Origin: Clostridia bacterium
GTDB lineage: Bacteria > Bacillota > Clostridia > Christensenellales > Aristaeellaceae
DNA: 64,000 nucleotides
Direction of reading: 5' to 3'
Assembly: GCA_017527065.1 (NCBI GenBank)
Contig: JAFXQO010000020.1
Span: 1 to 64,000, forward strand
Both the position numbers and the translations under genes were made by a program. The notes beneath the pieces are model-generated. The model saw only the letters and a program-made list of their open reading frames with translations. It searched no databases and was not told the DNA's origin. Each line of letters starts with the position of its first letter. Positions within the stretch are counted from its first letter, which is position 1. Positions 59,669-64,000 of this stretch are shown here, in pieces.

Positions 59669-59830
59669 ATGGCAGGCAAGAGCCGCATCAACGTGCCCGA
59701 GGCCGGCGCCGCGCTCGACAACATGAAGTATGAAATCGCGCGCGAGCTGGGCGTCAACCTGAAGAAGGGCTACAACGGCGACCTGACCGCCCGTGAAAAC
59801 GGTTCTGTGGGCGGTTCCATGGTCAAGAAC
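59669..59830 (+). pseudogene. alpha/beta-type small acid-soluble spore protein, 3' end removed by an insertion
   Basis: After GAGGAGG the frame encodes MAGKSRINVPEAGAALDNMK, YEIARELGVN, the GYNGDLTARENGSVGG block and MVK, a clear alpha/beta SASP with the germination-protease site near YEIA. A normal gene would continue with about 10-15 codons such as KMIE and an aromatic end. Here, from about 59828, the bases become the antisense of the recombinase gene's 3' end and the frame runs on meaninglessly to 60361. SASPs coat and protect DNA in dormant spores, so loss of one of several copies would be tolerated. Confidence 0.82.
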
Positions 59831-61458
59831 GTGTGGCCCGTACGGCGCTTAAATTTCTCCAATATCTTCTGCGTGGTTTCGCCGGTGAAAATGCGGATGT
59901 CCAGCCGCATGGTGCCGTCCTCCTCCGGCGTGACGAAGATGCGGTCGATGTACTTTTCGATGAACGGCCGCTTGATCACGCCCTGGGCCGCGTCCTTCTG
60001 TGCCTCGATCAGGGTTTTGCGGATCTCGTCGATGCGCTGCTTCAGCTTGTCACTGGAAAGAAGCTGCTCGTTCAGCTCGTCGATCTGCCCCTGGGCCGCG
60101 TCGATTTCAGCGTTGCACTGGTTGGTCAAGGCCGCGAAGTCGTCATCGGTGATCTTGCCGTCCAGATTGAGCTGCAGGAGCTTCATTTTTTTCTTCGAGG
60201 CGTTGTCGATAAGCTTCTTCTGCGCTTCGATCCGGGCGGGCAGCTGGTTGTGGTTCGTCATCTCGTTGTACATGCGGATGTATTCCTCCACCATCGCGTC
60301 CGCGTTGGCTTTGGTATCCTGTAACACCTCGAACAGCAGGGGGAGAAGCTCCTCCTCATAGATGGCGAAGGAGGGGCAGGTGTCCGCGCCGTTCTTGAGC
60401 TTTTCCGAACACACCCAGCGGTTGTTCACGCGGTTGCGCCTGTCGTGGGATTCCTTGCGGTAATAAGGCGCGCCGCAGCAGGTGCAGAACAGCTTGCCCG
60501 TCATGAGGTTTCCATGGTTGCAGATGCCCTGGCGGCTCTTCACATCCTCACTGCGACGCCTGAGCACAGTATTGGCCTGCTCCCACAGCTCCTCCGAGAC
60601 GATGGCCGGCACGATTTCGCCGCTCTCGTCCTTGAACATGACCCATTCCTCGGGCGGCAGGAACTTCTGCTTCTTCGTGAACATGTCCACCACCCGCACC
60701 TTGTTGCCCACATAGTAGCCCTTGTATTTGGGGTTGGCGATGATGTGGGACATGGTGCTGTGGGCGATCCGGTTGCCGTGGGTGTTGCGATAGCCCTTGC
60801 TCCAGAACAGATCCTCGATCTGCTTCATGCTGTACTCATCGGTGGCGTACAGCTCGAAGAGCTCCTGCACCATGGGCGCTTCGCTTTCATCGACGACAAG
60901 CCGACCCTTGTCCTTGCGGTAGCCGAAGATGCGGTTGTTGCCCAGCACCACGCTGGACTTGATGGCCTGCTGATGGCCGAATTTCACGCGGCTGGACAGC
61001 TTGCGCAGCTCGTCCTGCGCGATGCCGGACATGATGGTGAGGCGCAGCTCGGAGTCCTCGTCCAGTGTGTTGATGTTGTCGTTCTGGAAGAACACGGCCA
61101 CGCCGCTGCCGAGAAGCTCGCGCGTATACTGGATGGAGTCCAGCGTGTTGCGGGCGAAGCGGGTGATCTCCTTGGTGATGATCATGTCGAACAGGCCGCT
61201 CTTGCCGTCATCCACCATGCGATGGAAGTTTTCGCGTTTCTTCGTGGAGATGCCGGAGAGGCCTTCGTCGATGTAGCCCGGCACGAAGGTCCACGCGTTG
61301 TTCTGCCGGATCAGGTTTTCATAATACGCCACCTGATTGCCCAGCGAATTGAGCTGCTCGTCGGACTCAGAGGAAACCCGCGCGTAAAACGTCACGCGCA
61401 GCGGGATGTCGTAGATGGTTTTTGTGCGAAGCTGTTCCCGGACAGCGTGTATATCCAT
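59770..61458 (-). CDS. large serine recombinase (integrase)
   Basis: This 562-residue protein has a resolvase-type catalytic domain (FYARVSSESDEQL, catalytic S29; Arg-containing segment ITRFARNTLD). A recombinase domain with GYRKDKGRLVVDE and ATDEYSMKQIEDLF follows, then a zinc ribbon (CTCCGAPYYRK, later VCSEK and TCPSF) and a coiled coil (about 425-500). Such enzymes integrate and excise elements at short attachment sites. The last 20 or so codons are the antisense of the spore-protein gene, so the present stop codon at 59770 comes from host sequence. AGGAGGTCTCAT precedes the ATG. Confidence 0.93.
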   Translation of the reverse strand: MDIHAVREQLRTKTIYDIPLRVTFYARVSSESDEQLNSLGNQVAYYENLIRQNNAWTFVPGYIDEGLSGISTKKRENFHRMVDDGKSGLFDMIITKEITRFARNTLDSIQYTRELLGSGVAVFFQNDNINTLDEDSELRLTIMSGIAQDELRKLSSRVKFGHQQAIKSSVVLGNNRIFGYRKDKGRLVVDESEAPMVQELFELYATDEYSMKQIEDLFWSKGYRNTHGNRIAHSTMSHIIANPKYKGYYVGNKVRVVDMFTKKQKFLPPEEWVMFKDESGEIVPAIVSEELWEQANTVLRRRSEDVKSRQGICNHGNLMTGKLFCTCCGAPYYRKESHDRRNRVNNRWVCSEKLKNGADTCPSFAIYEEELLPLLFEVLQDTKANADAMVEEYIRMYNEMTNHNQLPARIEAQKKLIDNASKKKMKLLQLNLDGKITDDDFAALTNQCNAEIDAAQGQIDELNEQLLSSDKLKQRIDEIRKTLIEAQKDAAQGVIKRPFIEKYIDRIFVTPEEDGTMRLDIRIFTGETTQKILEKFKRRTGHTFLTMEPPTEPFSRAVRSPL

Positions 61459-61494
61459 ATGAGACCTCCTGTTGTCTTCAGGATCATCATCTAA

Positions 61495-61523
61495 AGTATA
61501 TCATATGACATTGAGAGAGTCAA
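61495..61523 (-). promoter_or_regulatory. promoter for the serine recombinase
   Basis: On the minus strand: TTGACT (61523-61518), a 17-base spacer and TATACT (61500-61495). Just beyond, about 61577-61605, TTTGTTGACA occurs twice as a direct repeat. Confidence 0.65.
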
Positions 61524-61658
61524 CATGTGGCAGAGTAGAGGCTGAATTGGGCCTGCGATAATTGCAAAAAAGTTTTTTCCTTTGTTGACAGGCTTTTGTT
61601 GACAAACTGGCCAAATGAGGCCTCGTACTGCGAAGTATGGTCCACCCCTTTGGTGCAC

Positions 61659-62003
61659 TCATCCATATATTACCTCCCTCATCACCCCTTCTTCCGCCAT
61701 CACCGTCAGCCCATTCATATGCGCTGCCCATCCCAGCGGATCGTCCGCCTTGTCCGGCGGGGGAAAGGATTTCGCCAGTTGCTCCACAATCCGATCCACC
61801 TGCTCCTGTGCCGTCTGGTCGATTTCCGCCAGATGGCGCTCCAGCTTGCCGGTCATCAGCATGCTCTGATACCAGTGCGGCTTGTGCGTCTTCAGGTACG
61901 ATTTCCGCAGAAGGCCGTACTTCGTGATCGTCAGCGTCTCCTCCGTCTCGATCACCAGATTCGGATAGAGGTAATCCCCGTTGCGATGATAGGTCAGTTC
62001 CAT
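61659..62003 (-). CDS. TnpV family transposon-encoded protein
   Basis: This 114-residue protein begins MELTYHRNGDYLYPNLVI and includes GLLRKSYLKTHKPHWYQSML and RIVEQLAKSFPPPD, matching TnpV proteins carried by clostridial transposons. They have no established biochemical role. The ATG at 62003 has AAGGAGG; an upstream in-frame start adds a Lys-rich segment that is not part of the family. It supports the view that this end of the window is a mobile element. Confidence 0.88.
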   Translation of the reverse strand: MELTYHRNGDYLYPNLVIETEETLTITKYGLLRKSYLKTHKPHWYQSMLMTGKLERHLAEIDQTAQEQVDRIVEQLAKSFPPPDKADDPLGWAAHMNGLTVMAEEGVMREVIYG

Positions 62004-62079
62004 ATAGCAAACCTCCTTGTTGTTTGTCTTCTTCGTTTTGTTCTCCTTGGCCACTTTCGCGCTTTAATGCGCTAAATTC

Positions 62080-62108
62080 ATTATATACCAGACTTTCTGT
62101 TTTTGCAA
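62080..62108 (-). promoter_or_regulatory. promoter for tnpV
   Basis: On the minus strand: TTGCAA (62108-62103), a 17-base spacer and TATAAT (62085-62080). Confidence 0.65.
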
Positions 62109-62130
62109 GAGGAATCTGCGGATTTTCACG

Positions 62131-62551
62131 GTCAAAGGCGCAAAGCTCCAGGTTACGGATTCCGAGGGGAACATGGTGGATAGCTGAATTTCTGAGAAAG
62201 AGCCTCACAAGATTATCCAAGGAAAATGGCGAGGTCATCGAGACCTAGACTTTTGGCAAGGAGCCACATTACATTGAAATGCTGTCCATTGGCAAGTACA
62301 AGCTGCATGAGGAAACTGCCCCGGACGGCTACCTGGTTGCCGAGGACATCATCTTTGAGGCGAAGGAAACCAGTGAAATCCCAAGCTGTGTCATGAAGGA
62401 TGAGGATTCGCCCGATAACCCCGAAACGCCCAAGACCGGCGATCCCGCTTGACCCGAAACCTAGGGGATTGTGGGCATTGTCGCTGTTTTCGGCGTGCTG
62501 ACCAGCATCCTAATTATTCGCAAAAACCGTCGAAAGTTCTGCTGCACCTAA
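62131..62551 (+). pseudogene. decayed sortase-anchored pilin/adhesin with a Cna-B-like C-terminus
   Basis: The translation gives VKGAKLQVTDSEGNMVDS and, after a stop and a frame change, YKLHEETAPDGYLVAEDI, typical of SpaA/Cna-B pilin domains. NPETPKTGDP, a sortase-type motif, follows, then a hydrophobic anchor (GIVGIVAVFGVLTSILII) and a basic end. At least three in-frame stops and one frameshift are present, and no start or upstream domains remain. It is a dead 3' fragment. The rest of 62004-62594 shows nothing else apart from the tnpV promoter. Confidence 0.78.
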
Positions 62552-62594
62552 ACAGGCACCCCCACCACATTGTCAGGGCTGCCCGTCAGAAAAA

Positions 62595-63962
62595 TCAGTC
62601 GGCGTAGAGATCGTCGCCGGTATAGTAGAGATAGCCGTCTTCTTTCTGGGTGAATCCGCTGGCTGAAATGAAGCCAATTTGGGCTACAGCAATGCCCTTT
62701 ATGCCTCGGATCTGTCCAGCTTCGCGGTGGATGTCATCGAGCTCTATGGGCTTCTTGAAGTATTTGGCTTCGCAGATGGTGTAGGTATCGCCGAAGTCCA
62801 GCGCGACATCAAACTCGCCATTGCTCTTGGTGGCAGGATCGTCATAGTAGAAGCTGCCGATATGCCGGATTCCAGGCAATTTCCCTTGCCGTGCAAGATA
62901 GGAGAAATAGTCGCGGCACAGCTCTTCAAAGCGGCGCGAGATGTACTCCGTCAGCGTAGGCGCGATGTACTGATCGTAGAAGACCTCCGCTCCGAGCATT
63001 TGCAAGGCGCTCTGATTCTTGTACACATAGGTGAAGTAGAATCGCATCAGGTTGTCGTTGATTTCATACATCACCTTCTTGGCGTCGCCGAGGCGGTTGA
63101 TTGGGGCATTCTTGCTCAGAATATCCAATTCAAGAAGGGCCTTGAGCTGCTTGGAGAGATTGCCGGTCTTCTTCACGTCGAGCAGGTTTTCAAGCTCTGA
63201 GTACTTCTTTTTGCCGTTGCCCAGCGTCGCAAAAATGCGCTCTGAGTTGACGCTCCTGGCGTAGTCTGACATGAGAAAATGCGAGGCGTACAGATAGACG
63301 GGGTTGCTCTCGTTGAGGATTGTCCGTATGATGTTGTCCCGCAGCGATTCGCCGTCCCGCAACTGCTCCAGCACAAAGGGGGAACCGCCGAATACGCCAT
63401 GGAAGCCGATTTTATCGTAAGCGTCCTTCGAGGCGTAGAAGGCCGCAGCCAACCGATAGGACAGTTCCTTCAACTGGATGACGGTGCTGAACCGACCGTA
63501 GAGCGCGTTGCCCTCACGAAGCATATCCCGCATCATGCCAATATGGGAACCTGATACGACGAGGTTGATATTGGTCAGATGATTGTCGATGATGGCCTGA
63601 AAGGCGGAATCCACCGTCTCAGGCTGTGTCATGGATTTGAGATAGGGATACTCGTCAATGACGACGATAAACTGCAGGGGGAGCGTGTTCAGGAAGGCGA
63701 AGACGTCCTGAAAGCTTGTAAACGTCGTTGCAAAGGTCAATATCTTCAGGCGCGCAAGCTCTTGCGTCAGTCCGTCGATATTGTCCCGCATCGTCCCTCT
63801 CAGGCATTCATAGTAGACATAGGTCTTCTGCTGCTTTTCAAGCGCCTCCTTGATCAGCGTGGTCTTTCCGACCCTGCGCTTTCCATAGAGCAGGGTTGCT
63901 GACCGCTTTTCCTTGAAGGCATCCAGGAGCAGCTGAAGCTCGCCGCTTCTTCCGACAAACAT
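62595..63962 (-). CDS. ATPase with C-terminal DUF234 nuclease-like domain
   Basis: This 455-residue protein begins with an archaeal-type STAND/AAA ATPase domain: Walker A GKRRVGKT (27-34), Walker B FIVVIDEYPY (98-107) and VVSGSHIGMM as sensor 1. The middle holds a winged helix (about 255-300). The C-terminal DUF234 region (about 355-455) contains EFDVALDFGDTYTICEAKY, a PD-(D/E)xK-type D...ExK pattern. Such proteins are common in clostridia and in mobile elements, and their role is unsettled. GGGGTGAG precedes the ATG. Lower GC than the left part of the window fits acquisition. Confidence 0.85.
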   Translation of the reverse strand: MFVGRSGELQLLLDAFKEKRSATLLYGKRRVGKTTLIKEALEKQQKTYVYYECLRGTMRDNIDGLTQELARLKILTFATTFTSFQDVFAFLNTLPLQFIVVIDEYPYLKSMTQPETVDSAFQAIIDNHLTNINLVVSGSHIGMMRDMLREGNALYGRFSTVIQLKELSYRLAAAFYASKDAYDKIGFHGVFGGSPFVLEQLRDGESLRDNIIRTILNESNPVYLYASHFLMSDYARSVNSERIFATLGNGKKKYSELENLLDVKKTGNLSKQLKALLELDILSKNAPINRLGDAKKVMYEINDNLMRFYFTYVYKNQSALQMLGAEVFYDQYIAPTLTEYISRRFEELCRDYFSYLARQGKLPGIRHIGSFYYDDPATKSNGEFDVALDFGDTYTICEAKYFKKPIELDDIHREAGQIRGIKGIAVAQIGFISASGFTQKEDGYLYYTGDDLYAD

Positions 63963-64000
63963 GATCTCACCCCACTTATGTTGAATTTGTTTTCAATGAA

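Follow-up and report, generated by a model that had tools for sequence, protein, structure and literature searches.

Introduction

SCC cassettes are islands with varied cargo that lie at the 3' end of a conserved gene. Other elements interrupt sporulation genes: passages of PMC5595907, PMC10747680 and PMC4191935 describe skin, SPbeta, vfbin, vrin, gin and yin, with sigK, spsM, spoVFB, spoVR, gerE and yabG as targets. The gene that gin interrupts is very small, and gin itself is a non-phage island (passage of PMC5595907). According to a passage of PMC4191935, SPbeta and skin are excised in the mother cell only, and the spore thereby retains them. In Bacillus subtilis, alpha/beta SASPs are made in the forespore under SigG control (sspC passage of PMC8270828); the same paper places the SPbeta attP between sprA and sprB. 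In mycobacteriophage BPs, attP lies in the repressor coding sequence, and integration changes the C-terminus and the activity of the repressor (passage in PMC4557955).

Here we analyze a stretch of 64,000 nucleotides (the window), which belongs to contig C55 of a MAG, G000, and in which an alpha/beta SASP gene is split by the end of an island, E1. As in the passages on skin, SPbeta, vfbin, vrin, gin and yin, a sporulation gene is cut at one site and could be rejoined exactly. Unlike in that class, whose targets of stated cell type are mother-cell genes in those passages, the gene concerned is a forespore gene in B. subtilis; moreover, many genera show SASP integration, and the integrase gene itself contains attP, unlike in SPbeta SprA (YokA) as described. 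An attP inside a coding sequence whose C-terminus is changed by integration resembles the integration-dependent immunity of BPs, as far as the passage on it goes. Unlike in BPs, the altered gene is the integrase rather than a repressor, and the exchanged tail ends up on the target gene.

Results

A SASP gene runs into an antisense integrase gene

A sequence-only reading of the window had described a SASP frame that is perfect to GGSMVK and then becomes antisense recombinase sequence. This was borne out: the frame starting at 59669 matched positions 2–49 of the 59 of the PF00269 profile (E 1.8e-22), was canonical to GGSMVK and then stayed open to 60361, antisense to the recombinase gene (Table 1). 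The junction had been placed correctly to within a few bases, and the TCAAGAA common to both junctions lies at 59823–59829. The core AA (59825–59826) forms bases 1 and 2 of the Lys codon in GGSMV-K. Conversely, the final ~19 codons of the integrase ORF, int1, are antisense SASP.

Three domains of int1 scored above cut-off, Resolvase (PF00239), Recombinase (PF07508) and a zinc ribbon (PF13408), which together make up the domain set of large serine recombinases. A profile search of the integrase matched solved SprA chains (E 4e-16); this match ended at position 514 of 559, ahead of the exchanged tail. Like SCC, the elements studied here are islands that carry varied cargo and occupy the 3' end of a gene that is conserved, and the best NCBIfam matches of int1 were CcrC and CcrB. 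Unlike SCC, the target gene is a different one, and the scores for CcrC, CcrB and CcrA were 106, 99 and 58 bits against cut-offs of 900, 900 and 700, so int1 does not belong to SCC/Ccr by the equivalog score. Nor is int1 TndX-like by domain content, as it lacks DUF4368, a domain named in a passage of PMC10083194 for a clade that includes TndX-like members.

Table 1. Features of the split SASP locus (window positions unless a contig is named).
Feature	Position	Strand	Basis or remark
Alpha/beta SASP gene 1 (SASP1), 5' part including core dinucleotide AA	59669..59826	+	PF00269; intact orthologues in G001, G003, G004
Hybrid open frame, SASP 5' part plus antisense integrase	59669..60361	+	230 codons
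Putative crossover dinucleotide AA	59825..59826	+	Center of reconstructed attP palindrome, 15/20 symmetric
attL, SASP arm left, attP arm right (..GAACGTGTGGCCCGTACGGCG)	59803..59848	+	Compared with the second E1 junction, on C28
Large serine integrase int1, 562-codon ORF	59770..61458	-	PF00239, PF07508, PF13408
TnpV-like small protein, adjoins integrase	61659..62054	-	PF14198, E 6e-32
Cargo AAA ATPase with DUF234	62595..63962	-	PF01637, PF03008
Element E1, left part	59827..64000	.	Goes on to contig C55 end, 66046; other end on C28, 91509 down to about 86400
SASP2 5' part	C28 86298-86150		3' end at C28 74485-74429

The gene is whole in relatives and its missing end lies on another contig

We searched five genomes of the genus, including G000 itself (3.07 Mb, 85 contigs, 89% complete). 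SASP1 was whole in three of the four other genomes (G001, G003 and G004), where it ran past GGSMVK to end MVKKMIEDYER.. and was directly followed on its 3' side by a second SASP gene. No SASP1 match was found in the fourth, G002 (72% complete). The missing SASP1 3' end of G000 was located on contig C28, minus strand, with the core AA at 86398–86399. This remnant (..CACATGTTCAAGAAGATGATCGAGG..) codes for KKMIEDYERQSSNR and a stop, and SASP2 comes next, matching the gene order of the relatives. C28 is 91% identical to G004 over the stretch that leads from the end of SASP1 into SASP2, and the SASP1 start on C55 shows the same identity. The sequence-only reading had expected the KMIE-like 3' part at the right end of the element: it exists, on C28, and is not at the right end of the window. 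We tried to join C55 and C28; the contigs do not overlap, and the interior of E1 is incomplete. Because the relatives have a whole SASP1 rather than the same truncated ending, and because a 3' remnant exists, the split-gene reading is favored on both counts. The comparison thus confirms that SASP1 is split and that its 3' end is an integration site, as had been proposed.

SASP2 of G000 is also cut, at the same codon as SASP1. Between its halves lies an element of 11,672 bp, E2, with both ends on one contig. The E2 integrase differs from int1 (39–41% identical), and its frame runs straight into the SASP2 end (..GNMVKKMIESQERQMSGQSR). A third, divergent SASP gene remains in G000, at C77. The gene found 3' of SASP2 in G001 and G003, which by reading alone resembles a nucleotidyltransferase, lies on a different contig in G000 (G000:C17:144304-145530); the C28 flank past the SASP2 end (below 74429) is therefore not ancestral.

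The integrase clade targets SASP genes

Some serine recombinase match was present in at least 112 of 150 relatives. All nine full-length integrase matches at 41% identity or more in these genomes were at a SASP gene, five antisense to its 5' half and four in frame with its end. Two shorter matches of that identity occurred, in G138 (161 residues at 65% identity, cut by the edge of a contig, with no SASP match at E ≤ 1e-3) and at G006:C7 (44% identity over 192 residues). At the 23 other loci (L032–L054, G138 included, several cut by contig ends) there was no SASP match at E ≤ 1e-3.

We then scanned genome contigs with an alignment of nine integrase sequences, using patterns away from the C-terminus. 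The scan yielded at least 553 relatives, of which the best 80 were kept. A SASP junction was present in 79 of these best 80. The integrase frame ran into the SASP-tail motif (e.g. ..RTGHTFKKMIESYENGMK) in 76 of them, where SASP identity mostly rests on a short C-terminal motif and the 5' half was on the same stretch in six; three of the best 80 were antisense to the SASP 5' half (L080, L126 and L129) and one was neither (L140). At L140 (L140:10001-11710) the integrase ends ..GHTFKVLRKPSERRLWDRISVHLPPP and has no SASP tail, and the same genome carries a hybrid SASP elsewhere (L200); L140 is possibly at a secondary site. Among 40 relatives on viral contigs, six had a SASP tail, two had the antisense form, 25 had something else and seven ran off the contig. 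The integrase of MT837325, a human fecal record in a phage collection, is likewise in tail form.

Most genomes compared were MAGs. The pattern recurred across assemblies made independently, some of which (L081, L112 and L126) have no MAG in their title, and nine elements were each whole on one contig. In Pseudoflavonifractor phocaeensis An858 (L081 = G156:C22, 217,190 bp), a hybrid SASP (153524–153778) and an integrase (about 194350–195978) have the same orientation, and the element, roughly 42 kb, is probably whole on one contig. By these comparisons, the integrase clade is SASP-specific, with this Lys codon as its predicted attB.

Rejoined flanks restore the SASP gene and a palindromic attP

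For E1, E2 and the elements of two further relatives, G066 (42,585 bp) and G085 (31,329 bp), we joined the two flanks in a script to rebuild the empty site and the circle junction. The rejoined empty sites were normal SASP in all four cases (MVKKMIEDYERQ, MVKKMIESQERQ, MVKRLVEQAERQ and MVKRLIEQAERA, respectively). The circle junctions formed an imperfect palindrome around AA, with 15, 16, 18 and 12 of 20 positions symmetric, versus 5–6 on average after shuffling. Six further single-contig elements of 6,341–11,499 bp (L085, L099, L103, L112, L115 and L137) had an attP symmetry of 12–15 of 20 (p 5e-5 to 1.8e-3), and the rejoined end read MVKKMI.. in 6/6.

Thus, both ends are known for ten elements, each of which gives a canonical SASP end on rejoining, and the core AA falls on bases 1 and 2 of the same Lys codon in 10/10. 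The earlier proposal that the gene could be restored by rejoining agrees with these reconstructions, which give a canonical frame; restoration of a split sporulation gene on rejoining is a feature of the skin/gin class. At the ten sites, attP is palindromic (12–18 of 20) and its central dinucleotide, AA, is common to attB and attP. From the symmetry and the shared bases, we infer that AA is the crossover dinucleotide.

A viral locus with a naturally unswapped integrase, L157, had an attP palindrome of 13/20 (p 0.047 versus a best-of-scan null). Among the 13 viral loci tested, no palindrome was found near the integrase end in L172, L175, L176, L182 and L189 (p 0.15–0.80); L154 and L170 had their best palindrome away from the expected core.

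Integration exchanges tails between the integrase and the SASP

In the circle form of the ten elements, the integrase frame crosses the core and runs on for 32–43 codons to its own stop. The stretch past the core is moved to the other end on integration and is what the SASP 5' part reads into. Since attP lies within the integrase gene, integration in the usual orientation exchanges the C-terminal tails in frame, both ways: ~33 residues of the integrase are added to the SASP, while the SASP end passes to the integrase. As in BPs, the gene that holds attP has a changed C-terminus in the integrated form.

We hand-chose carrier genomes for 50 of the best 80 loci, and 39 had a SASP match. At 30 loci, 31 SASP genes comprised 26 hybrids with an integrase tail, two of the antisense type and three intact ones. 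Among 39 distinct hybrids between SASP and integrase tail, a set restricted to tails of 25–48 residues (which leaves L203, with a 96-residue tail, and two antisense ones outside), the tail was exactly 33 residues long in 33. The motif R..R...GH.....Y was present in 30/39 tails and a looser form, R..R..........Y, in 36/39. In L157, a viral contig of 100 kb on which a DNA polymerase gene lies close by, the unswapped integrase reads ..RTGHTIKNILPIRN..YRFSVGVRI.

E1 has the less common orientation. Its core reads TT in the integrase sense, and int1 is antisense to the SASP 5' part because the core is flipped; the displaced native tail of int1 is at the far end of E1, on C28. In Bxb1, the central dinucleotide alone reportedly sets orientation, going by the title of a 2003 study by Ghosh et al.

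The SASP part of the hybrids had a median dN/dS of 0.29, indicating strong constraint. The median for the displaced tail was 0.67, only moderately low over 202 non-independent pairs; we rejected this value as too weak to prove a function of the displaced tail.

Elements move between hosts with varied cargo

Movement of the elements between hosts is indicated by comparison of tails and hosts: in hybrids L216 and L218 the tail DNA is 98% identical versus 74% for the host SASP DNA, and in L085 and L225 these values are 94% versus 81%. The integrases of L085 and L099 are 98% identical and the cargo is largely different. At the SASP codon, the element at L115:2176-9857 carries a full Wadjet set by PADLOC models (JetA3, JetB3, JetC3 and JetD3), the G085 element a type I restriction system; cargo ATPases were of DUF4143 and DUF234 type, and replication-initiator-like proteins were Viral_Rep and Rep_trans. 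A search with ten cargo proteins returned Viral_Rep, Rep_trans, a DUF4143 ATPase and WG repeats, an FtsK/HerA-like match below cut-off, and four proteins without a match above cut-off. A phage origin of the small elements was considered and rejected, as no phage structural family appeared among the matches of these ten proteins. E2 ORFs resemble sugar transport and glycoside-active genes by reading alone, and the one included in a Pfam search had no match.

An all-against-all comparison of ORFs of at least 70 codons in nine elements, in which the G085 integrase ORF was replaced by a larger antisense ORF, revealed no shared gene besides the integrase that could be a directionality factor. In E1, the ATPase and a sialidase-like gene span window positions 62330–64000 and C55 to 65380. 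This DNA is 95–96% identical to the stretch directly 3' of the intact SASP2 of G004 (L015:9843-12555), where it has the opposite orientation relative to SASP1. A short frame between the TnpV and ATPase genes (62279–62452) ends NPETPKTGDPA and presumably resembles a remnant of a cell-wall-anchored surface protein.

Carriers of a split SASP keep a spore-protein protease

We surveyed the family of one carrier, Colidextribacter sp. OB.20, whose record is not titled MAG, by sampling 150 of its genomes evenly. The SASP query matched in 117, with a single match in 110, and had no match in 33. Hybrid SASPs were present in 12 of the 117 SASP-bearing genomes (about 10%), not counting two survey rows that reach as far with a stop inside the match; a second intact SASP was listed in the survey table for 0/12. 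The SASP protease GPR (PF03418) was found in 11/12 hybrid genomes, 18/18 non-hybrid genomes and 7/19 genomes without a SASP match, the sample being taken by list order, not at random (19 of the 33), and MAG incompleteness limiting both the SASP and the GPR counts. The difference between hybrid genomes and those without a match had p 0.003 (Fisher), and that between hybrid and non-hybrid genomes p 0.4; 17 of the 18 non-hybrid genomes read as intact SASP, and one was cut by a contig end. GPR is kept in hybrid genomes, and the carriers therefore appear to be sporulation-type genomes.

Six integrase-clade genomes are nearer to the window. In two of them, G066 and G085, the split SASP is accompanied by an intact one; G006, G014, G058 and G111 (97% complete) have a split SASP only.

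Discussion

Taken together, these results very probably have one explanation: the window holds the end of an island that belongs to a clade integrating at a SASP Lys codon with a swap of tails. E1 would work like other serine-integrase islands: a site-specific large serine integrase would have inserted it at the GGxMV-K Lys codon of the alpha/beta SASP gene. Its attP would be an imperfect palindrome centered on AA within the integrase gene, 32–43 codons before the stop in the ten elements. In the usual orientation, the SASP N-part would take the integrase tail and the integrase the SASP end, and excision of E1 would restore both genes. Genome comparison establishes the split genes, the att sites, targeting across the clade, the in-frame hybrids and movement between hosts; catalysis by the integrase and the exact crossover dinucleotide we infer. 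We read the island as a transferable element and not as a fixed developmental switch: until it is excised, its hosts would put up with a SASP that is hybrid or missing.

That the arrangement is an artefact of assembly or binning could be suspected of G000, a MAG of 85 contigs in which the SASP1 3' half is on another contig. The same arrangement in independent assemblies (L081, L112 and L126 among them) and nine elements whole on single contigs refute this as the cause of the general pattern, and we consider it extremely improbable. Could excision instead be programmed into sporulation, as in skin, gin and SPbeta, so that the SASP gets made? The hybrid is the only SASP found in all 12 surveyed family carriers, the one SASP match of the nearly complete G111 is split, GPR is retained in hybrid genomes compared with those without a SASP match, all ten rejoined SASP genes are canonical, and the passage of PMC5595907 on gin offers a precedent. 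We nevertheless find this improbable. The sequence-only reading had suggested that excision in the mother cell or during sporulation could restore the gene; the mother-cell idea fits poorly with SASPs being forespore proteins and with the known excisions being, in the passages cited above, mother-cell events after which the spore keeps the element. Mother-cell excision would not supply SASP to the spore, because SASP genes are forespore genes driven by SigG in B. subtilis, and excision in the forespore would strip the element from the germ line unless the circle were kept. In addition, recent insertion accounts equally well for GPR retention, G066 and G085 have an intact SASP beside the split one, and no common directionality factor was seen across nine elements among ORFs of at least 70 codons.

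Two readings do without programmed excision. The hybrid SASP may be functional with only its last stretch replaced, the insertion being nearly neutral; we regard this as doubtful. Hybrids make up 26 of 31 SASP genes in carrier loci, the 39 distinct ones stop after 33–44 added residues, and their SASP part is under strong constraint, but the substitutions behind that dN/dS are largely older than the insertion. Moreover, a useful tail is not guaranteed: antisense-type E1 gives a 230-residue read-through, L206 has a very short end (KNM stop) and the L203 tail has 96 residues. Alternatively, SASP loss may be tolerated, with spore genes as convenient targets and carriers that form weaker spores or do not sporulate. 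Retention of GPR in hybrid genomes speaks against such a loss, whereas 33/150 family members have no match to the SASP query used, and G000 has its two main SASP genes split, leaving only the divergent third at C77. We hold tolerated loss to be a real possibility, if somewhat short of an even chance.

Within our preferred reading of SASP-codon integration with tail swap, the swap could act as a latch on directionality. The extreme C-terminus of SprA is reportedly, by the title of a paper by Abe et al., a potential part of a directionality switch. Because of this reported role and the integration-dependent change in BPs, a latch is a reasonable suggestion. If it is true, the integrase of the circular form, with its own tail, would favor integration, the SASP-tailed form would have a different directionality, and element and host spore gene would report each other's state. 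Joined to excision before division or in the forespore that restores a sole split SASP at spore formation, the whole becomes rather unlikely; it would be, as far as known, the first forespore-directed programmed rearrangement.

As far as we searched, three things are new: SASP as the target, the recurrence of this target and the two-way exchange of tails. In the open-licence papers searched, SASP was not found as an integrase target. PMC5786514 mentions SASP solely among its references, and in Durrant et al. (PMC10083194) the word 'spore' is absent from the main text, although the supplementary tables of such catalogues may hold integrases of this kind. Alpha/beta SASPs, DNA-protecting spore proteins, add to sporulation-gene interruption a target class that is recurrent in gut Clostridia and no mere curiosity. 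The reciprocal in-frame exchange provides a natural test of how the C-terminus of a serine integrase sets directionality. With a single conserved attB and att sites that can be read in many orthologues, the clade is also useful for recombinase engineering. The split genes also raise the question of how spore DNA is protected in carriers whose only SASP found is split.

A second insertion site

The same SASP gene has a second site, at E|VGVN (L254–L269; e.g. L099:3590-3660). Its N-parts read ..FKMEAAND or similar, followed by a short tail and a stop, and its C-parts start, for example, ..GTPREVGVN. The recombinases just 5' of the second-site C-part in L099, L259 and L262 carry DUF4368, unlike int1. 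In OB.20, an extra SASP N-part at L255 (G179:C111:6330-6428) has the same start as the hybrid SASP and is cut at this second site, which points to a duplicate copy or to a population that is mixed. The C-part also has the site-B hybrid tail in six genomes (G158, G161, G164, G170, G171 and G175), where the SASP gene is therefore split twice.
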